In this document: positions 51,664 through 61,580 of the stretch, piece after piece
How positions within the stretch are numbered: the first letter of the stretch is position 1
Layout: each line of letters starts with the position of its first letter
Origin: Bacteroidaceae bacterium
Lineage (GTDB): Bacteria; Bacteroidota; Bacteroidia; Bacteroidales; Bacteroidaceae
Assembly: GCA_017503645.1 (NCBI GenBank)
Contig: JAFVSR010000040.1
Location: 1-63,064 of the forward strand
Length of the DNA: 63,064 bases
Direction of reading: 5' to 3'
Translations under genes and position numbers: made by a program
The notes under the pieces: model-generated
Told to the model about the DNA's origin: nothing
Databases searched by the model: none
Seen by the model: the letters and a program-made list of their open reading frames with translations, nothing else

Positions 51664-51896
51664 TTTGTAGTAAATGCAGTGTTGTATAGTAGTGTATATG
51701 ACAAAGAAAATAAAAAAAGTTTATATCTTGTCCATAAGTACAATGTTTTTTTGAAAAAAGTTAAAAAAGAAAAATGTACACATATTCATCCCTTTATCCT
51801 TATATATAATAATGCGGTGCAGCAGCCACTTTGCCTGCAAACATTTCTTTTGCTTTGTTTGTTTCTCTCTCTGTAAACTTTCAAACAAATAAAATT
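51664..51896. promoter_or_regulatory. Divergent spacer between araC-type gene and porin gene
   Basis: A 233-bp AT-rich spacer. GTACAATG and TGTACACAT (about 51738 and 51776) are similar words about 38 bases apart. They are candidate AraC sites, but the match is weak. Confidence 0.3.
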
Positions 51897-53171
51897 ATGA
51901 AAAAACTTTTAAAGGCAACAATGGTTTTTGTTTGCGCGTGCCTCACAGGCTCGGCCGTTTGCGCACAGGAGTGGGTGAAACCCGGTGATGAACCCGTTTC
52001 GCTTATCTGCATCAGTGAGACTATTAACGAAGCTCCCGATGTGGTGGAGATTTTCCAGACAACGCAGAGTAGCTATTACCACAATCCGCGTGCTCCGCGT
52101 TTTGTACTTGTCGACCAGCAGGGCAAGTGGGGCTTGGGTATAGGCGGTTACCTGCAAACCACGTTTGAGTACGATTTTGGCGGCTCGGTGGATAATGTCG
52201 ACTTCTTGCCCTCGGCAATAGACAGGAGTGGTGTGTCGTCGAGCCAGTATCAGATGGATATGACAACCTCTACCATCTTTATGAAACTCGTAGGGCGCAG
52301 CAAGGTGCTTGGCGATTTCTATGTGTTTACGTCGGGTAACTGGCGCGGTAGCGGCGACAACTTCCGCCTTCACAATATGTATATGAGCACCAAGTACCTC
52401 ACACTCGGTTACACAACCGGTGCTTTTATGGACCTTGAGGCCTGCCCCGTTACCGTAGATTACGGTGGCCCCTGTGGTATGGCTTTCTATCGCACCACGC
52501 AGTTGCGCCTTAAGTATGCCTTCGATTGGGGCTTGTCTATGGGTATGGGTATAGAGGCATCCAAGCCTGTGGGTACCAATACCGAGTATTCAAACATCAC
52601 AAGTCAGCGTATGCCCAATATCCCCATATATGTGCAGTATGCATTCAATGACGACAGCCACATACGCGTGGCCGGCGTGGTGCGCAACCTTTCGTATCGC
52701 AATAATGTAACAAACGACAAGCATAACAAGTATGCCTGGGGTGCGCAGGTGAGCCTTTTGGGTACATTGGGCAAATTGCAGCTGAAGGGCCAGTTCACTA
52801 TGGGTAAAGGTATAAGTTCCTACATAAACGATATATCCAATGTGGGTGTCGACCTTGTTCCCGCTGCCGAAAACGGCCGTATGACTATGTTGCGCTCCGA
52901 GGCTTGGTATGTGGGCTTGCAATATAACGTAAGTTCAAAATTCTTTGCCACCGCCACATATAGCCAAACAGCCCTTCACTCCAACAGCGGCTATGCCGAG
53001 GCTTATCCCGAATCGTACCGTCGCGGGCAGTATGTTGTTGCCAATATGTTCTACAATGTGAGCAAGAATATGCAGGTGGGCCTTGAGTATCTGCACGGCT
53101 GGCGCACCGATTTCGATGGCGACAAGGATGGTGCCAACCGCGTGAACATTGCAGCACGTTACAATTTCTAA
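51897..53171 (+). CDS. DcaP-like outer-membrane porin
   Basis: A 424-aa outer-membrane beta-barrel protein. Signal peptide at about residues 1-23 (ends VCAQ). A short helical/linker part follows, and the barrel starts near WGLGIGGYLQTTFEYDF. Many strands of alternating aromatic/polar residues follow, ending in the motif VNIAARYNF with C-terminal Phe. The layout resembles the DcaP/porin O-P-like trimeric porins. I chose ATG 51897; the in-frame start at 51831 would place the signal peptide off its N-terminus. It is divergent from an AraC-type gene and upstream of the two phosphate transporter genes, so a role in anion uptake is possible but not shown. Confidence 0.8.
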   Translation: MKKLLKATMVFVCACLTGSAVCAQEWVKPGDEPVSLICISETINEAPDVVEIFQTTQSSYYHNPRAPRFVLVDQQGKWGLGIGGYLQTTFEYDFGGSVDNVDFLPSAIDRSGVSSSQYQMDMTTSTIFMKLVGRSKVLGDFYVFTSGNWRGSGDNFRLHNMYMSTKYLTLGYTTGAFMDLEACPVTVDYGGPCGMAFYRTTQLRLKYAFDWGLSMGMGIEASKPVGTNTEYSNITSQRMPNIPIYVQYAFNDDSHIRVAGVVRNLSYRNNVTNDKHNKYAWGAQVSLLGTLGKLQLKGQFTMGKGISSYINDISNVGVDLVPAAENGRMTMLRSEAWYVGLQYNVSSKFFATATYSQTALHSNSGYAEAYPESYRRGQYVVANMFYNVSKNMQVGLEYLHGWRTDFDGDKDGANRVNIAARYNF

Positions 53172-53232: not shown

Positions 53233-53364
53233 GCTTGCGCTTCGCTTTCTTGTAGCATTATTGCATTATGCGAAATATTGCAAATGCAGTTGTAACATTT
53301 TGCATTCTGCGAAATGTTCTGCGCTCGCTGTGAAACCTGCAAACAGGTTTGCGTTTCGCTCTCT

Positions 53365-53404
53365 TGTAACATTTTGGTAACAATTATGTAACAAGCAGGT
53401 AATT
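53365..53404. promoter_or_regulatory. Candidate Pho box: four 11-bp-spaced direct repeats
   Basis: Four direct repeats at an exact 11-base step: TGTAACA (53365-53371), GGTAACA (53376-53382), TGTAACA (53387-53393) and GGTAATT (53398-53404). Four-base linkers separate them (TTTT, ATTA, AGCA). Seven conserved plus four variable bases, on one face of the helix, is the layout of PhoB and PhoP boxes. The last repeat ends 10 bases before a -7-like TATTTTG (53415-53421), also as in PhoB-activated promoters. The gene behind it encodes a phosphate transporter. Confidence 0.6.
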
Positions 53405-53414
53405 TATATTCCCC

Positions 53415-53421
53415 TATTTTG
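53415..53421 (+). promoter_or_regulatory. -7-like box of first PiT gene
   Basis: TATTTTG is one base short of TAnnTTTG. It lacks a -33 TTTG, which agrees with an activator-dependent promoter served by the upstream direct repeats. The ATG is at 53468. Confidence 0.4.
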
Positions 53422-53467: not shown

Positions 53468-55717
53468 ATGGAAATATCTTATCTTTTGATTGTCGTCTTT
53501 CTCTTTGCACTTGCAATAGTGGATTTGTGGGTGGGAGTGAGCAACGATGCTGTGAATTTCATTAGTTCGGCTGTTGGTTGCAAGGCTGCCAAGCTGAAAC
53601 ACGTACTCTTTGTGGCGGCTGCAGGTGTCTTTATGGGCGCAGCGTTCAGTAACGGAATGATGGAGGTTGCCCGCAGCGGAATTTTCAACCCTTCGGAATT
53701 CTATTTCTCCGAGGTTATGTGCATTTTCCTTGCCGTGATGGTGAGCGATGTCTTTCTGCTCGACCTCTTCAACTCGCTTGGCCTGCCCACATCAACTACA
53801 GTGTCGCTTGTGTTCGAGTTGCTTGGTGCAGCCTTCATTGTGGCAATAATAAAGATGTTCAGCGGTGGTGCCGATATGGATATCGTTAACCTGCTCAATA
53901 CCGACAAGGCATTGGTTATGATTATCTCGATATTTCTTTCGGTAGCAGTAGCATTTCTCTTTGGTCTTGTGGTGCAGTGGATATCGCGCCTTATTTTTAC
54001 ATTTCATTTTCGCAGGAATCTTGGTCGCAAGATTGGCATCTTTGGCGGTATTGCCGTTACATCGATAGTCTATTTTATGCTCATAAAGGGCTTGAAGGGT
54101 ACTACCATTGTGTCGCCCGATGTAAAGGAGTACATAAACAACAACCTGCTACTTGTGCTTGGCGGTTGCTTCCTCTTTTTCACGCTGCTTATGCAGCTGC
54201 TCCATTGGTGCCGCGTGAATGTTCTTAAAGTGGTTGTACTCATTGGTACATTCTCGCTTGCACTTGCCTTTGCAGGTAACGACCTTGTAAACTTCATCGG
54301 TGTTACACTTGCCGGTTTCGATTCATTCATCACATATTCATTCAACAATCCTGCCGGCCTTGCAGCCGACCAGTTTACAATGGAGTCGCTTGCCGGTGCA
54401 GCAAAAACACCTGTATATTTTCTCTTTGGTGCCGGTGCGGTGATGGTGATTGCGCTATGCACCAGCAAAAAGGCGCTGAAGGTGTTGCAGACATCTATCG
54501 ACCTCTCTACTCAAAGCAACGATGAAAACGAGATTTTCGGCACATCGCCCATTGCACGCAACCTTGTGCGCACAACCACCAAGGTGGCCGATGCCGTGGT
54601 ACGTGCCACCCCGCAATGCGTGAAGAACTGGGTGAACAAGCGCTTTGCCCCTCTGGAGGAGAGGCAGGATGTAGCCTTCGACCTTGTGCGCGCATCGGTA
54701 AACCTTGTGCTTGGCGGTCTGCTCATAGCAGTGGGTACATCGCTCAAATTGCCCCTCTCCACTACATATATCACATTTATGGTGGCAATGGGTAGCTCGC
54801 TTGCCGACCGTGCCTGGGGGCGCGAGAGCGCTGTCTATCGCGTGACGGGTGTAATATCGGTTATAGGCGGCTGGTTTGTTACCGCAGGCGCAGCCTTCAT
54901 ATTGGGTGCGTTGGTAGCCGCAATTATGTACTACGGCGGCATTGTGGCAATGTATGCAATGATAGCGCTCGTAATTTATCTGCTCATCCACAGCCATATA
55001 AAATATAATAAGAAGAAAAAGGAGGAACAGGATGATGTCACTATGCAGATAGTGTTGCGCAGCGACGATGAGGCCGAGGTGTGGAGTGCATTGAAGGAGC
55101 GCACCGCAAAGACTATATCTTCTTCGCTTGTCTTTTCGGCCGACACATACAAACGTATGTTTGAGGCATTTGCCAAGGATTCTTTGCGCCCCCTCAAACT
55201 GTCGCTCATAAAGATAGTGGAGGAGAAGGCGAAACTAAAGAAGCAACGCCGCCTTGAAACACGTGGCTTGCAGCGCATAGACCAGCAGCTATCGTTTGAG
55301 CGCAGCACTTGGTATCACTTGTGTACCAACAGTTGCCAGCAGATGCTAAACACCCTCACCCGCATAGGCGAGCCTATGAAGGAGCACGCCGACAACAGCT
55401 TCTCGCCCCTCTCCAAGAGTTATATAGAGGAGTTCTCTCCCTATTGCCGCGATGTATACAATGTGCTTATGGATATAAACCATATGGTTGAGAGCGGTAG
55501 CTATGACAACGCCGATGAGGTGTCGGCCCGTGCCAAGGAGCTGAAGCACTCGCTTGCCACACTGCGCAAAACACAGACAAGGCGCCTGCAGGGTAACAAA
55601 GGCAGCCTGCGTATGGATTTCGAATATCTCAACATAATACAGGAGAGCCACGAGCTGCTGAGCGAGGTGCGCAACCTGTTGCGTGGCAGCAATAAATATT
55701 TTGCTCCGGTGGTGTAA
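53468..55717 (+). CDS. PiT-family inorganic phosphate transporter with PhoU-like tail (copy 1)
   Basis: A 749-aa inner-membrane transporter of the PiT family (cation/phosphate symport). Its two inverted signature repeats are SNDAVNFISSAVG (near residue 24) and AGNDLVNFIGVTLAG (near 270). About ten to twelve membrane helices fill residues 1-515. The C-terminal 230 residues are soluble, helical and PhoU-like (EVWSALKERTAKTI and ERSTWYHLCTNSCQQM). PhoU restrains phosphate uptake in other bacteria, so the tail may give built-in feedback. It has a Pho-box-like promoter. A second copy follows at 56038. Confidence 0.88.
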   Translation: MEISYLLIVVFLFALAIVDLWVGVSNDAVNFISSAVGCKAAKLKHVLFVAAAGVFMGAAFSNGMMEVARSGIFNPSEFYFSEVMCIFLAVMVSDVFLLDLFNSLGLPTSTTVSLVFELLGAAFIVAIIKMFSGGADMDIVNLLNTDKALVMIISIFLSVAVAFLFGLVVQWISRLIFTFHFRRNLGRKIGIFGGIAVTSIVYFMLIKGLKGTTIVSPDVKEYINNNLLLVLGGCFLFFTLLMQLLHWCRVNVLKVVVLIGTFSLALAFAGNDLVNFIGVTLAGFDSFITYSFNNPAGLAADQFTMESLAGAAKTPVYFLFGAGAVMVIALCTSKKALKVLQTSIDLSTQSNDENEIFGTSPIARNLVRTTTKVADAVVRATPQCVKNWVNKRFAPLEERQDVAFDLVRASVNLVLGGLLIAVGTSLKLPLSTTYITFMVAMGSSLADRAWGRESAVYRVTGVISVIGGWFVTAGAAFILGALVAAIMYYGGIVAMYAMIALVIYLLIHSHIKYNKKKKEEQDDVTMQIVLRSDDEAEVWSALKERTAKTISSSLVFSADTYKRMFEAFAKDSLRPLKLSLIKIVEEKAKLKKQRRLETRGLQRIDQQLSFERSTWYHLCTNSCQQMLNTLTRIGEPMKEHADNSFSPLSKSYIEEFSPYCRDVYNVLMDINHMVESGSYDNADEVSARAKELKHSLATLRKTQTRRLQGNKGSLRMDFEYLNIIQESHELLSEVRNLLRGSNKYFAPVV

Positions 55718-55748: not shown

Positions 55749-55794
55749 AAAAATTAACAGAGGAAAGCGCGCTTTCCCCTGTTAATTTTTTTTT
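55749..55794 (+). terminator. Terminator of first PiT gene
   Basis: AAATTAACAGAGGAAAGCG and CGCTTTCCCCTGTTAATTT pair with one mismatch and are followed by eight or more T. Confidence 0.85.
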
Positions 55795-55800
55795 GCCCCT

Positions 55801-55833
55801 TTTGCTGAATTATAAAATATTTATCTATTTTTG
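55801..55833 (+). promoter_or_regulatory. Promoter of second PiT gene
   Basis: TTTG at 55801-55804 and TATTTTTG at 55826-55833, spaced by 21 bases, fit the Bacteroidota promoter. It would give a leader of about 200 bases. No 11-bp GTAACA repeats are seen here. Confidence 0.5.
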
Positions 55834-56037: not shown

Positions 56038-58299
56038 ATGGATATTGCGTATCTATTGGTAGTCATCTTTATGTTCTCGCTGGCAATCCTCGATTTGACA
56101 GTCGGTGTGAGCAACGATGCCGTAAACTTTCTAAGTTCTGCAGTCGGCAGTAAGGCTGCAAAATTAAATCACGTACTTTTGGTTGCCGCCCTGGGTGTAT
56201 TCATAGGCGCGACTTTCAGCAGCGGTATGATGGATGTGGCGCGCCACGGAATCTTCGCTCCGCAGTATTTCAGTTTCAGTCAGGTTATGTGCATCTACTT
56301 GGCGGTGGTCATCAGCGATGTCTTTCTGCTCGACCTCTTCAACTCGCTTGGCTTGCCCACATCAACCACCGTTTCTATGGTGTTCGAGTTGCTTGGTGCC
56401 GCATTCATCACTGCGCTCATCAATTCAAGCACAACCACAGCAAGTTTTATGGAGATGCTCAACACCGACAAGGCGTTGACAATCATTATCTCAATATTTC
56501 TCTCGGTAGCCATAGCCTTTGTGTTCGGTCTCATTGTGCAGTGGATTGCGCGTGTCATCTTCACCTTCCACTATCGCAAGAACCTGTCGAGCAAGATTGG
56601 TATCTTTGGCGGTATTGCCGTTACGTCTATCATATACTTTATGCTCATTAAGGGATTGAAGGGCAGTGCTTTGGTTTCCGACTCGGCGCGAGCATATATC
56701 GACGAACACACCGTTCTCATACTCTTTATTGCATTTGTGTTCTTTACAATATTTATGCAGTTGCTCCATTGGTGCAAGGTGAATGTGCTCAAGGTGGTTG
56801 TGCTCATAGGTACATTCTCTTTGGCTTTCGCCTTTGCGGGTAACGACCTTGTGAACTTCATTGGTGTTACATTGGCCGGTTTCGAGTCGTTCAAGGATTT
56901 CACAGCCAATGGTGCCGGCATTGCTGCCGATAACTTTATGATGGATTCGCTAAACGGTTCGGCAAAGACTCCCGTATATTTCCTCATAGGTGCCGGTGCG
57001 GTTATGGTGTTTGCGCTGTGGACAAGCAAAAAGGCCCGCAAGGTGTTGCAGACATCTATCAACCTGTCGAGCCAGCAGAACGACGAAGGTGATATATTCG
57101 GTACATCGCCCATTGCACGTAACCTTGTACGTGCCACCACCAAGATGGTCGATGGCATTTCGCGTGTGACACCGCAGAGCGTTAAGGACTGGGTAAACAA
57201 GCGCTTTAGGCCGCTCGAGGAGCGCGAGGATGTTGCATTCGACCTTGTGCGCGCATCTGTGAACTTAGTGCTTGCGGGCTTGCTCATCGCGATTGGTACA
57301 TCGCTTAAACTGCCCCTCTCAACAACCTATGTTACATTTATGGTGGGTATGGGTTCTTCGTTGAGCGACCGTGCCTGGGGGCGTGAGAGTGCCGTGTACC
57401 GTGTAACCGGTGTGGTTTCGGTAGTGGGCGGTTGGTTCATCACAGCCGGTGCTGCATTCATAATTGCTGCTTTTGTGGCATCGATAATGAACTATGGCGG
57501 TATCCCTGCAATGTATGTGATGATTGCCCTGGTTGTCTATCTGCTCATCCGCAGCCACATACAGTATAACAAGAAAAAGGGAAGCGAGAAGGCCGACGAG
57601 GATATGATGGTTATTCTCCGTTCCGAGGACCAGAAGGAGGTTTGGGAAAAACTGCAGTCGCATGCAGCAAGCACCCTCACACACTCGCTCACTTTCTCGG
57701 CCGATACATACAAACGCCTCTTCGAGTCTTTTGCCAAGGATGAGCTTCGCCCATTGAAATCGTCGCTCATAAAGATTGTGGAGGAGAAGGCCTATCTGAA
57801 GAAGGAGCGCCGTTCCGAAACACGCGGTATGCAGCGCATAGACCAGCAGCTTGCTTTTGAGCGCAGCACCTGGTATCACCTCTGTACCAACAGTTGTCAG
57901 CAGATGCTCAACACCCTCACCCGCATTGGTGAGCCTATGAAGGAGCACGCCGACAACAGCTTCTCACCGCTCTCAAAGAGTTATATAGAGGAGTTCTCGC
58001 CCTATTGCCGCGATGTATATAATACCTTAAAAGATATCAGCGATATCATAACAAGTGGCAACTACGAGGATTCGCACGAGGTGTCGGAGCGCGCCAAAGA
58101 ACTCAAGCACGCGCTTGCCAACCTGCGCAAGACACAGACAATGCGCTTGCACCAGAGCAGCGGCAGCTTGCGTATGGACTTTGTATATCTGAACCTTATC
58201 CAGGAGAGCCACGAGCTCCTCAGCGAGGTGCGTAACCTATTACGTGGTGGTAACAAGTTCTTTGCCTCATCTACGGTGAAGGTTACTCCCGCAGAATAA
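56038..58299 (+). CDS. PiT-family inorganic phosphate transporter with PhoU-like tail (copy 2)
   Basis: A 753-aa paralogue of the preceding gene. The same SNDAVNF and AGNDLVNFIG repeats, membrane core and PhoU-like tail are present, and a stretch of about 60 residues around ERSTWYHLCTNSCQQM is identical in both. Differences concentrate in the loop near residues 120-130 and in the linker near 520-530. It follows from a tandem duplication. The promoter differs: it is a constitutive-type site, without the GTAACA repeats. Two paralogues with different control may give low- and high-phosphate uptake. A strong terminator follows. Confidence 0.88.
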   Translation: MDIAYLLVVIFMFSLAILDLTVGVSNDAVNFLSSAVGSKAAKLNHVLLVAALGVFIGATFSSGMMDVARHGIFAPQYFSFSQVMCIYLAVVISDVFLLDLFNSLGLPTSTTVSMVFELLGAAFITALINSSTTTASFMEMLNTDKALTIIISIFLSVAIAFVFGLIVQWIARVIFTFHYRKNLSSKIGIFGGIAVTSIIYFMLIKGLKGSALVSDSARAYIDEHTVLILFIAFVFFTIFMQLLHWCKVNVLKVVVLIGTFSLAFAFAGNDLVNFIGVTLAGFESFKDFTANGAGIAADNFMMDSLNGSAKTPVYFLIGAGAVMVFALWTSKKARKVLQTSINLSSQQNDEGDIFGTSPIARNLVRATTKMVDGISRVTPQSVKDWVNKRFRPLEEREDVAFDLVRASVNLVLAGLLIAIGTSLKLPLSTTYVTFMVGMGSSLSDRAWGRESAVYRVTGVVSVVGGWFITAGAAFIIAAFVASIMNYGGIPAMYVMIALVVYLLIRSHIQYNKKKGSEKADEDMMVILRSEDQKEVWEKLQSHAASTLTHSLTFSADTYKRLFESFAKDELRPLKSSLIKIVEEKAYLKKERRSETRGMQRIDQQLAFERSTWYHLCTNSCQQMLNTLTRIGEPMKEHADNSFSPLSKSYIEEFSPYCRDVYNTLKDISDIITSGNYEDSHEVSERAKELKHALANLRKTQTMRLHQSSGSLRMDFVYLNLIQESHELLSEVRNLLRGGNKFFASSTVKVTPAE

Positions 58300-58316
58300 C
58301 GAGTGATAAAAATAAA

Positions 58317-58369
58317 AAGCAGCAGCGGCAGAAAGATAGAAAAATTCTTCTGTCGCTGCTGCTTTTTTT
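58317..58369 (+). terminator. Terminator of second PiT gene
   Basis: AGCAGCAGCGGCAGAA and TTCTGTCGCTGCTGCT pair with one mismatch and are followed by TTTTTTT. Confidence 0.88.
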
Positions 58370-58404: not shown

Positions 58405-59238
58405 ATGAAATATATTGGAGCACACGTATCGGCAAGCGGCGGTGTAGAGAACGCGCCGCTGAATGCAGCAGCCATAGGAGCCAATGCATTTGCCCTCTTT
58501 ACAAAGAATCAACGCCAGTGGGTGTCGGCACCCCTCACAGAAAAGAGCATTGCTCTCTTTAAGGAACGTTGTGTGGCGGGTGGCTTTGATGCCCGTTACA
58601 TATTGCCGCACGACAGTTACCTCATAAACTTGGGCAACCCCGACGAGGAGGCAATACAAAAGTCACGCGCGGCCTTCCTCGACGAGATGAAACGTTGCGA
58701 GCAACTGGGGCTCACAATGCTCAATTTCCACCCCGGCAGCCATTTGAACAAAATTTCGGTGGAGCAGTGCCTCGATGCCATTGCGGCCAACATAAACCTG
58801 GCGCTTGAACACACCCGTGGCGTGACGGCAGTTATTGAAAACACGGCAGGGCAGGGCAGCAACGTGGGTAACCGCCTCGAGGAGATACGTTACATAATAG
58901 ACCGCATCGACGATAAAAGCCGTGTGGGTGTGTGCATAGATACCTGCCACTTCTATTCGGCAGGCTACGACATAGTGAACGACTACGAAGGCGCGTTTGC
59001 CGCACTCGACAATATCATTGGGCGCGAGTACCTGCGTGCAATCCACCTGAACGACACCAAGAAGCCCTTGGGCTCTCGCGTGGACAGGCACGAAAGCATA
59101 GGCCTGGGCCTGCTGGGCTTGGATTTCTTCAAACGTTTTATGAAGGATTCCCGTTTCGACAATATAGCTATAATCCTTGAAACACCAGATGAAAGCCGTT
59201 GGGCCGATGAGATAAACCTATTGCGTAGTTTTGAATAA
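58405..59238 (+). CDS. nfo: Endonuclease IV (AP endonuclease)
   Basis: A 277-aa DNA repair enzyme that cleaves 5' to abasic sites, with three zinc ions in a TIM barrel. Visible signatures: [12 protein letters not shown] at the start, LNFHPGSHL (metal His), [13 protein letters not shown] (metal Glu), [15 protein letters not shown] (metal Asp/His) and [23 protein letters not shown] start at ATG 58405; a longer in-frame start at 58303 would lie in the previous terminator. It leads an operon with a response regulator (5-base gap), a histidine kinase (6-base gap) and an acyltransferase (15-base gap). Confidence 0.96.
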
Positions 59239-59243
59239 AGCAT

Positions 59244-59939
59244 ATGGAAAGAATTCTTGTCGTTGATGACGAACCCGATTTGTGCGAGATTCTCAAATTT
59301 AATCTCGAAAACAATGGCTACGAGGTAGATACCGCAAACTCGGGCGAGGAGGCACTTGAAAAGGATGTGACCTCCTATAGCCTGTTTCTGCTCGATGTGA
59401 TGATGGACGATATGAGCGGTTTCACTCTTGCATCGTGCCTGCGCAAGATACCGCAGGCGGCAAACACCCCCATAATATTCATAACGGCCAAGGGCGATGA
59501 AAACGATGTGCTCACGGGCTTTAACGTGGGTGCCGACGACTACATTCATAAACCATTCCGCATAAGCGAGGTAGTTGCCCGCGTGAAGGCCGTGTTGCGT
59601 CGTCGCGAGGCGGGCGCTGCACCCGTCGCACAGGCAAGCGAGTTGGTGGTGGGTTCTCTTGCACTGAACCCCGAAACCAAGCGCGCCACCATAGACGGCG
59701 AGGATATATCGCTCACAAAAAAGGAGTTTGAGGTATTGCATATGCTACTGTTGAAGCCCGGCAAGGTATATTCGCGCGAGGAGATTCTTGCCCGCGTGTG
59801 GCCCGACGATGTGAACGTGCTCGAGCGCAGCATAGATGTGAATATGACACGTCTGCGCAAGAAACTCGGCCCTTATGCATCGCACATAGTGTCGCGAAGC
59901 GGCTATGGATATTGTTTCATTTCAGACCGTAACGAATAG
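59244..59939 (+). CDS. OmpR/PhoB-family response regulator
   Basis: A 231-aa two-component regulator. The receiver domain (about 1-120) has the acidic pair VVDDEP, the phospho-Asp in FLLDVMMDD (near residue 52), the Thr in FITAKGD and the Lys in HKPF. The DNA-binding winged helix (about 135-230) has TKKEFEVLHMLLLKPGKVYS and the recognition region ERSIDVNMTRLRKKLG, ending in SGYGYCF. It lies downstream of two phosphate transporter genes; the first has a Pho-box-like array, so a PhoB-like role is an attractive inference. It is co-transcribed with nfo, a kinase and an acyltransferase. Other signals are not excluded. Confidence 0.93.
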   Translation: MERILVVDDEPDLCEILKFNLENNGYEVDTANSGEEALEKDVTSYSLFLLDVMMDDMSGFTLASCLRKIPQAANTPIIFITAKGDENDVLTGFNVGADDYIHKPFRISEVVARVKAVLRRREAGAAPVAQASELVVGSLALNPETKRATIDGEDISLTKKEFEVLHMLLLKPGKVYSREEILARVWPDDVNVLERSIDVNMTRLRKKLGPYASHIVSRSGYGYCFISDRNE

Positions 59940-59945
59940 AGTAGT

Positions 59946-61580
59946 ATGTCCTCCTCGTTTGCAAAGTTCTTTCTTCCTCTTGTGGTACTGCTGCTCCTGC
60001 TTGTCGGTTGCAGCATATACTACTACCACGACCGTGAGCGCCAGTTTGCCGAGCTGCACCTGCAAGAGGCACTGCGCAATGTGAACGAGAATGTGTACGA
60101 CCTGCTGCGCATACGTGGCGAGAATGAGTACAGCGAGGATATGGCAGTGTATCTGCAACGCTACATTGCTCACTACGACAGGCGCGGCCTGCGCCTCACG
60201 CTCATTTCGCCCGCTACAGGCAACGTGCTCTATGAGTCGTCGGCCTTGGCAGGTGATGCCTGGATAAGCCGCGAAAACCACGCAGCCCGCCCCGAGGTGG
60301 TGCAGGCCAAGAGCGATGGCCTGGGCTATGCCGTGCGCCGTCTCTCCACCGCAACGGGCGAGGAGTATTTCTATGTGGCCACATACGATGAAGAGTTCAA
60401 TTTTATTGTGCGCAGCTCAATGCCTTACAAGTTTGTATATACCCACAATACCACCAAGCACATTGTTGTACTCTTAGTTTCGGCTTTTCTTGTGGCGCTT
60501 CTCATCATTATAATGTATCGTGTGACCCAGGCCATTGGCAGCAAGGAGTTTGCAACGCAAAAACTGCTTATGCATTTGAGCATAGCACAAGAGGGGCTTG
60601 CTTTCTTCGACAACCGCAAACGGTTGCTCTTTGCAAACAGCCTCTTCAGCGAGTATGGCGATTTCATATCGGCAAAACATCTGGCCGATACGGGTGATAT
60701 CCTTGCCCAGCCCGAATTCCGCAAAATAAAGCGCTTCATAGACAACGACGGCTACCTGAACAATACCACGCGCGAAAGTACCATACACGACAAGGTCGAT
60801 GTCTCGGGGCGCACATTCTCCCTGCGTTGCGTGCTGTTCAAGGATGGCAGTTTCGAGGTATCCATAAACGATATAACGCGCGCCGAGGAGCAGAGCCGCA
60901 TTGAAAGGCAACTGACGCAAAATGTGGCCCACGAATTCAAAACACCGGTATGCAGTATTCAAGGCTATCTGGAAACTATATTGGAAAACTATCCCGCCAA
61001 CCTCACCGCCGAACAGATGATGCACTTTCTGCAACGTTGCCACTCGCAAAGCAACCGCCTCAATACCCTGGTGCAGGATATGCAGAACCTCAATAATATG
61101 AACGATACCCTGCAAAAGATAAATAAAGAGCAGGTGGATATAGCACAGGTGGTAGGCGGCATACAGCAGGAGATAGACAACAAACTTGCCGAGCAGCAAA
61201 TGAGCGTGCATAACAAACTGCCTGCACGGCTGTTGCTTATGGGCGATGCGGGTAAAATATACTCCATCTTCCGCAATCTGTTCGACAATGCCGTGGCCTA
61301 TGCAGGGCAGGGTTCCGTCATCACAATAAGCTGCTTTCGCAGCGATGCCCAGTACTACTATTTCAGTTTCAGGGATAATGGCGCGGGAGTGCCGCAAGAG
61401 CACCTGTCACGCATATTTGAACGCTTTTATCGCGTGGATAAGGGACGCAGCCGCAAACTTGGCGGTACCGGCCTTGGGCTTGCCATTGTGAAGAACGCCG
61501 TGGCTTTGCACGGTGGCACCATATCGGCACGCGAGGCACAGGGTGGCGGTCTTGAATTTGTGTTTAAGTTGCGCAGGTAA
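59946..61580 (+). CDS. Sensor histidine kinase partner of the response regulator
   Basis: A 544-aa membrane kinase. Helix 1 covers about residues 8-27 and helix 2 about 172-193, enclosing a periplasmic sensor of some 145 residues with no Cache-type motif I can name. A PAS-like domain follows (about 205-310). The phosphorylation helix holds NVAHEFKTPVCSIQGY (His near residue 329). The ATPase domain shows NLFDNAVAYAG (N box), DNGAGVP (G1), FERFYRVDKG and GGTGLGLAIVKN (G2). It starts 6 bases after the regulator gene, as a cognate pair. The layout (membrane, PAS, HisKA, HATPase) is that of PhoR-like kinases, which agrees with the phosphate context but does not prove it. Confidence 0.93.
   Translation: MSSSFAKFFLPLVVLLLLLVGCSIYYYHDRERQFAELHLQEALRNVNENVYDLLRIRGENEYSEDMAVYLQRYIAHYDRRGLRLTLISPATGNVLYESSALAGDAWISRENHAARPEVVQAKSDGLGYAVRRLSTATGEEYFYVATYDEEFNFIVRSSMPYKFVYTHNTTKHIVVLLVSAFLVALLIIIMYRVTQAIGSKEFATQKLLMHLSIAQEGLAFFDNRKRLLFANSLFSEYGDFISAKHLADTGDILAQPEFRKIKRFIDNDGYLNNTTRESTIHDKVDVSGRTFSLRCVLFKDGSFEVSINDITRAEEQSRIERQLTQNVAHEFKTPVCSIQGYLETILENYPANLTAEQMMHFLQRCHSQSNRLNTLVQDMQNLNNMNDTLQKINKEQVDIAQVVGGIQQEIDNKLAEQQMSVHNKLPARLLLMGDAGKIYSIFRNLFDNAVAYAGQGSVITISCFRSDAQYYYFSFRDNGAGVPQEHLSRIFERFYRVDKGRSRKLGGTGLGLAIVKNAVALHGGTISAREAQGGGLEFVFKLRR

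Follow-up and report, generated by a model that had tools for sequence, protein, structure and literature searches.

The window, a 63,064-nucleotide stretch of DNA from a Bacteroidaceae bacterium, carries two tandem phosphate permease genes followed by an nfo-like gene and a two-component pair, and a short array of direct repeats lies upstream of the first permease gene. The features of the locus, all on the forward strand, are as follows.

53366..53404 (+), predicted Pho-box array of period 11, named from its letters, its recurrence at orthologues and its place as the top site of its own genome
53366-53371, 53377-53382 and 53388-53393 (+), array units GTAACA; 53399-53404 (+), array unit GTAATT
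53415..53421 (+), −7-like element TATTTTG, in a register common to PiT and pst promoters
53468..55717 (+), PiT1, phosphate permease gene downstream of the array (PF01384)
55750..55794 (+), intrinsic terminator 3′ of PiT1, followed by a T run (−17.7 kcal/mol, z −5.44)
55801..55833 (+), ordinary promoter-like pair for PiT2 (TTTG, 21 nt, TATTTTTG), without a Pho box
56038..58299 (+), PiT2, 75% identical to PiT1, without an array
58314..58369 (+), intrinsic terminator 3′ of PiT2 (−33.8 kcal/mol, z −7.44)
58405..59238 (+), nfo-like gene (PF01261), which opens the phoBR unit
59244..59939 (+), phoB (pair A; NF053854), proposed binder of the array, whose adjacency tracks the box
59946..61580 (+), phoR (pair A; NF053855), sensor kinase

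Because strong terminators follow both PiT1 and PiT2, the two permease genes and nfo-phoB-phoR look like three units. The promoter-like pair preceding PiT2 we take to be of the −33/−7 type, going by the consensus that we assume for these elements. A DcaP-type porin gene (51831-53171) precedes PiT1, and such a gene lies near PiT in 21 of 28 named loci of the genus. The C-terminal ~245 amino acids of PiT1 and PiT2 (54980-55717 and 57562-58299) are conserved; this region gave no Pfam family above cut-off and no convincing match to a solved structure. Its identification as a PhoU-like sensor is unsupported, with no PhoU in Pfam (E ≤ 5) or among solved structures (E ≤ 10).

Upon re-reading of the letters, the repeats, their 11-base spacing, the 10-base gap between unit 4 and TATTTTG and the missing −33 box proved to be exactly as the first-pass annotation had them. 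Counting both ends, the stretch between the first G in unit 4 and the last G of TATTTTG is 23 nt long. No TTTG occupies the −33 position of the PiT1 promoter, where 53390-53396 reads AACAAGC. Judged from the letters, with a −33 region lacking TTTG and a −7 TTTG in fixed register, the array replaces the upstream promoter element. Its word is (T)GTAACA, and it does not match the E. coli word CTGTCAT. The window has a single run of three exact GTAACA units at period 11, which is far above chance, and the three-unit pattern with up to three mismatches gave two overlapping window matches versus a mean of 0.05 in 100 shuffles. The two-unit pattern is unremarkable: up to two mismatches gave 10 window matches, three of them in the array, versus 4.7 expected. 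In the whole genome, exact GTAACA-N5-GTAACA has four matches, two in the array and two within coding sequence; as the sole search word it was rejected as too loose, and a 63-column profile was used instead. Two imperfect copies of a CGCTTCGCTTTCTTGTAGCATT-like stretch lie 5′ of the array (about 53238-53259 and 53351-53373), which together with a lone GTAACA at 53292 may be the remnant of a duplication.

Recurrence of the repeats at phosphate genes

A family sample of 61 genomes, 34 of which had a match, supplied PiT loci (29 foreign ones were kept), and to these we added 33 loci from named records. In all, 62 PiT upstream regions were scored, one truncated locus being excluded; at least two genomes are represented twice, so the regions are not independent. 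The phased pair G[TA]AA[CT]N-N5-G[TA]AA[CT] was present in 42 of the 62, compared with a shuffle mean of 0.58 and a maximum of 4 (200 shuffles), and absent from 20. When periods from 6 to 21 were scanned in 63 regions (PiT2 added), 42 had the pair at period 11 and at most eight at any other period. The first-pass annotation's Pho-box reading is borne out by this comparison, as the 11-bp repeats are conserved upstream of orthologous PiT genes. The distance from the second unit to TTTG at PiT was most often 45 (27 loci), 23 (22 loci) or 34 (20 loci), the next being 12 (7 loci).

In this family, pstS often shares an operon with a porin-like gene on its 5′ side, and it is this porin-like gene that the box precedes. 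The name "porin-like" rests on relatives: the genus protein falls below Pfam cut-offs, and a 74%-identical relative passes Porin_4. Of 14 pst regions fetched, 11 were scored; L119, which meets a contig end, L120, in which no porin frame was found, and L124 were left out, the last having a different pst layout, in which boxes are nevertheless present. Upstream of the porin-pst operons the phased pair occurs in 8 of 11 regions (shuffle mean 0.11, maximum 1), and 23 nt is the commonest distance from unit to TTTG (5 loci). The immediate upstream region of PstS was rejected as the position of the box: there, 24 of 30 PstS-type loci differed from the two-unit word at three or more positions. At many of these loci the box precedes the upstream porin-like gene of the same operon. 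PF12849 gave no match in the genome of the window, but as the assembly is 86% complete and close relatives have pst with the box, we do not read this as a true loss of pst. At unit 4, almost every pst site has A and most PiT sites have T. This letter fails as a pure marker of the regulator, since the same split persists in the window's subclade, where pair B (below) is not found beside pst; the letter therefore tracks target as much as regulator.

Rows for the profile were picked with TT(T/C)G at a fixed place (22 PiT and 11 pst); L030 and L114 were dropped. The final 21 PiT and 10 pst sites, from unrelated gene classes, form a gapless alignment of 31 rows and 63 columns, in which units 1 and 2 are weak in several pst rows (L111, L112, L113, L116, L121 and L122). 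Having the register was a condition for entering this alignment, so the register is fairly tested by the unselected distance scan above. In its own genome, the window site scored 47.9 bits and the next match 19.0, the window site being one of the 31 training rows. Across 44 genomes of the genus, the profile gave 91 matches at E ≤ 1e-3 in 41 genomes and none in the other three. The first downstream gene is a PiT, pst-operon-type or Na/Pi cotransporter gene in 86 of the 91: 36 pst-operon-type porin genes, 29 PiT, 20 Na/Pi cotransporters and one pstC, with training rows accounting for at most 15 of the 29 PiT sites, 3 of the 36 porin-type sites (an upper bound) and none of the 20 cotransporter sites. 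PstS came next after 33 of the 36 porin-type genes and was not seen after two, one being unchecked. The single cotransporter scanned has PF02690 and PhoU domains. The other five matches precede a cation P-type ATPase, a TonB-dependent receptor, a contig end, a small HTH gene and an ECF-type sigma factor. The boxed cation-transporting P-type ATPase gene (L222:1221-3890, in G071) has look-alikes with weaker sites in G064 and G077 (L234, L235).

The search was extended to 98 other Bacteroidales genomes, nearly all from different families (E ≤ 1e-3), where it returned 50 matches in 25 genomes. Phosphate-type genes account for 32 of the 50. By next gene, seven matches precede PiT, seven phoB, seven a PstS-type gene (PF12849) and eight a porin-like gene; single matches precede a pst-type permease (PF00528), an alkaline phosphatase and a metallophosphatase. 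All seven phoB genes pass NF053854, and six of the eight porin-like genes are over a Pfam cut-off. The 18 matches not clearly linked to phosphate comprise three TonB-dependent receptors, six small proteins and nine with another gene or none. In Parabacteroides distasonis An897, a Bacteroides MAG and two Parabacteroides MAGs, a site precedes phoB in all four (E 5e-7 to 2e-3; NF053854) and PiT in three (E ≤ 0.05), one of these being a training row. Thus, in Bacteroidales the repeats recur upstream of the PiT, pstS, phosphatase and porin genes to which the first-pass annotation had pointed, and also before phoB.

No match was found in 73 of the 98 Bacteroidales genomes or, in the rest of Bacteroidota, in 113 of 117 genomes (E ≤ 1e-3), perhaps partly because the search filters are stricter above 40 genomes; the remaining four each had one match, two of them before PstS. 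A phylum-wide box in this form is unsupported. The earlier suggestion that the motif could define a Pho box for Bacteroidota needs correcting: in this form the motif occurs across Bacteroidales and hardly elsewhere in the phylum, and the available part of one report already gives a related motif, TTTAACA, for the Pho-type regulator of Riemerella anatipestifer (PMC9603813).

A small protein of 114-123 amino acids (PF13715, carboxypeptidase-regulatory-like) lies 3′ of the site in 6 of the 50 order-level matches (L298:1524-1865, L291:1571-1939, L274:1113-1478, L276:1113-1457, L307:3809-4159 and L287:1579-1932) and is an unnamed candidate for the Pho regulon.

PhoB/PhoR pairs and co-variation with the box

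The nearby pair that had been called PhoB-type from its letters is PhoB/PhoR by curated NCBIfam models. The response regulator scores 329.7 bits against NF053854 (Bacteroidales PhoB; cut-off 270) and the kinase 565.2 bits against NF053855 (Bacteroidales PhoR; cut-off 500). The window PhoB falls below the broad equivalog TIGR02154 (201 bits versus 296.2), as do the PhoBs of P. distasonis An897 and the three MAGs (206-224). At E ≤ 1e-10, the window's own genome has pair A only; two more distant OmpR-type regulators are present (C12 and C35; 35-36% identity).

In the genus, pair A follows PiT and nfo, and a second pair (B) adjoins porin-pst in 28 of 35 pst loci fetched. The pair B response regulator passes the PhoB model in the two scanned, and its kinase scores 428 and 426 against the cut-off of 500. 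The pair A kinase of G059, which is short, scores 473 against the same cut-off. In G059 and G040 the pair A PhoR (L111:7285-8418 and L125:11481-12623) has 377-380 amino acids versus 544 in the window, its N-terminal part missing.

A PiT box, meaning three or more phased units upstream of a PiT copy, is present at 15 of 15 loci with pair A adjacent and at 2 of 11 without it; two undetermined loci, one same-genome duplicate, two truncated loci (L051 and L080) and five loci from other genera were excluded. With shared ancestry ignored, this association has a Fisher p of 1.8e-5. On the nfo tree, phoBR adjacency changes at least eight times. Among four independent pairs on well-supported nfo branches, the box changed in the same direction in 3.5 on average and never in the opposite one, giving a median p of 0.125 in a test that cannot reach 0.05 because only four such pairs exist. 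In G016, which has pair B only, the PiT box is absent and the pst box, itself a training row, is kept. The profile found no Pho box before nfo-phoB-phoR of the window's own genome.

The first-pass annotation had further stated that the second PiT gene lacks the motif. This is so in the window and in four close relatives scored, none of which has a Pho array at PiT2; the seven other tandem PiT loci scored depart from it, with at least three phased units at both copies in 7 of 7.

The recognition helices of the two regulators differ (ERSIDVN-RLRKK in PhoB A; DRTIDVNITRLRSK in PhoB B), and therefore box dialect and regulator may have co-evolved. That two paralogous PhoBR systems split the Pho regulon in the genus in this way is a tentative reading, to which we give somewhat less than an even chance. 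Under it, pair A (in PiT-nfo-phoBR) would serve the four-unit GTAAYA boxes at PiT, and pair B (beside porin-pst, often with a Na/Pi cotransporter) would serve boxes ending in a GAAAYA unit. A lineage losing pair A would then see its PiT box decay and its pst box stay.

Predicted mechanism, alternatives and known systems

Beside what was observed directly (the array, its register, its recurrence, its association with phosphate genes, the identity of PhoB and PhoR, and the co-variation with phoBR), we regard it as highly likely that the array is a Bacteroidales-type Pho box that replaces the −33 element, a predicted PhoB site activating PiT1. Likewise, the GTAACA pattern in related bacteria is very probably a docking site, predicted from sequence, of their phosphate-starvation regulator. 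At promoters that lack the upstream element, PhoB and PhoP are known to bind 11-bp repeats as head-to-tail dimers and to contact sigma, an arrangement with which the fixed 23-nt register agrees. In the proposed sequence of events, PhoR (59946-61580) would activate PhoB (59244-59939) by phosphorylation, and phosphorylated PhoB would then occupy the 11-bp direct repeats, of the form (T)G(T/A)AA(C/T)A, in head-to-tail order. In the Bacteroidetes promoter, the box would stand in for the missing −33 element, its last repeat kept at a constant 23 nt from where the −7 element ends, and box-bound PhoB would bring RNA polymerase to TATTTTG and turn on the PiT1 permease. PiT2, which a terminator separates from PiT1 and which has an ordinary −33/−7-like pair, would be the housekeeping copy. 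PhoB binding, activation, the response to low phosphate and constitutive PiT2 expression are what we infer from these features. Low-phosphate induction of PiT1 must be worded with the same care, because in Bacteroides fragilis, according to the available part of the report, the PiT-type permease BF3715 is 52-fold lower without PhoB yet in phosphate-limited wild type changes at most 4-fold (PMC3547664, Table 2).

The same observation bears on whether PhoB, bound at the array, might chiefly repress PiT1 or keep it poised instead of inducing it. Several PhoB-dependent B. fragilis genes, including this permease, change at most 4-fold in wild type, and in the accessible text of another study R. anatipestifer pstS is up in the regulator mutant (PMC5399024). 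The array is positioned, however, where a −33-replacing activator would sit, and the 52-fold drop without PhoB goes against repression, making this alternative unlikely.

Less likely still, the array could be a true direct-repeat operator bound by an OmpR-type regulator other than the window PhoB. OmpR-type regulators often bind direct repeats, and the two more distant ones (C12 and C35) exist in the genome. Against them, the box also precedes phoB and other phosphate genes across Bacteroidales, and the PiT box is kept with adjacent phoBR and mostly lost without it.

A third possibility, that an ECF-sigma promoter has the repeats as its −35 part, draws on the second-best match in the window's own genome, which, like its counterparts in two close relatives, reads GTAACAAATATGTAAAATCTCCGTCATA; in the relatives the element precedes a 159-amino-acid gene, an ECF-type sigma factor in the one scanned. 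It is very improbable for PiT1, whose array has no CGTC-type −10 element and whose promoter has an ordinary −7 TTTG in fixed register, and four phased repeats are not known to us from any ECF promoter. The conserved GTAACA-N5-GTAAAATCTCCGTCATA element itself (C89:46235-46268 in the window's own genome; L229 and L230) resembles an ECF promoter and not a Pho box, and in two close relatives it lies directly 5′ of the gene for the 159-amino-acid ECF-type sigma factor. Chance, or a functionless low-complexity AT repeat, is consistent with the many two-unit matches obtained when mismatches are allowed, and is refuted by the recurrence of the repeats at phosphate genes across families, by the shuffles and by the genome-wide specificity.

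The finding of phosphate-gene-associated repeats is real, and it is more general than the first-pass annotation supposed. Bacteroidales are major gut bacteria, whose phosphate genes can now be predicted from sequence alone by a specific word, its period and its promoter register. The finding also hints at how an activator site is accommodated in promoters built on TTTG elements instead of −35 and −10. Within one genus, the box varies together with adjacent phoBR, which amounts to a natural experiment in the sharing of targets between duplicated regulators.

The Bacillus subtilis PhoP box consists of TTAACA-like hexamers about 5 bp apart. The predicted Bacteroidales-type Pho box likewise has several near-identical hexamers at an 11-bp period just 5′ of the core promoter, but its first base is mostly G, its −7 element is that of Bacteroidetes (TTTG), and its register to TTTG is fixed at 23 nt. 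The E. coli Pho box, in the part of the source available, has two 11-nt repeats with a CTGTCAT core (PMC4415409). Both systems have 11-bp direct repeats at phosphate-gene promoters, a PhoB-family reader and a site before phoB itself, here in other Bacteroidales (PMC4415409, same part). Unlike the E. coli box as described there, the present one has another word, up to four or more units, and a different sigma factor and promoter elements.

No Pho-box consensus for Bacteroidales was found in the open-access library searched, which lacks most subscription journals and preprints. In B. fragilis, the pst genes and the PiT-type permease need PhoB, and PhoB binds a 512-bp pst promoter fragment in EMSA; the portion of the report at hand does not define the site within this fragment, and the word "consensus" is absent from its main text (PMC3547664). 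For the Flavobacterium phosphate regulon, neither "motif" nor "pho box" occurs in the main text (PMC8115612). The DAP-seq motif of R. anatipestifer PhoP, most conserved as TTTAACA and found around 579 of 583 peaks, is reported as single, and the available part of the paper describes no 11-bp array, fixed promoter register or tie to phosphate genes (PMC9603813). It shares with the Bacteroidales repeats the phylum and a phosphate-linked PhoB/PhoP-type regulator, and its core word is similar; in R. anatipestifer too a site precedes the regulator's own operon (PMC9603813, same part); as far as that text goes, it is the closest published match in the open-access literature.
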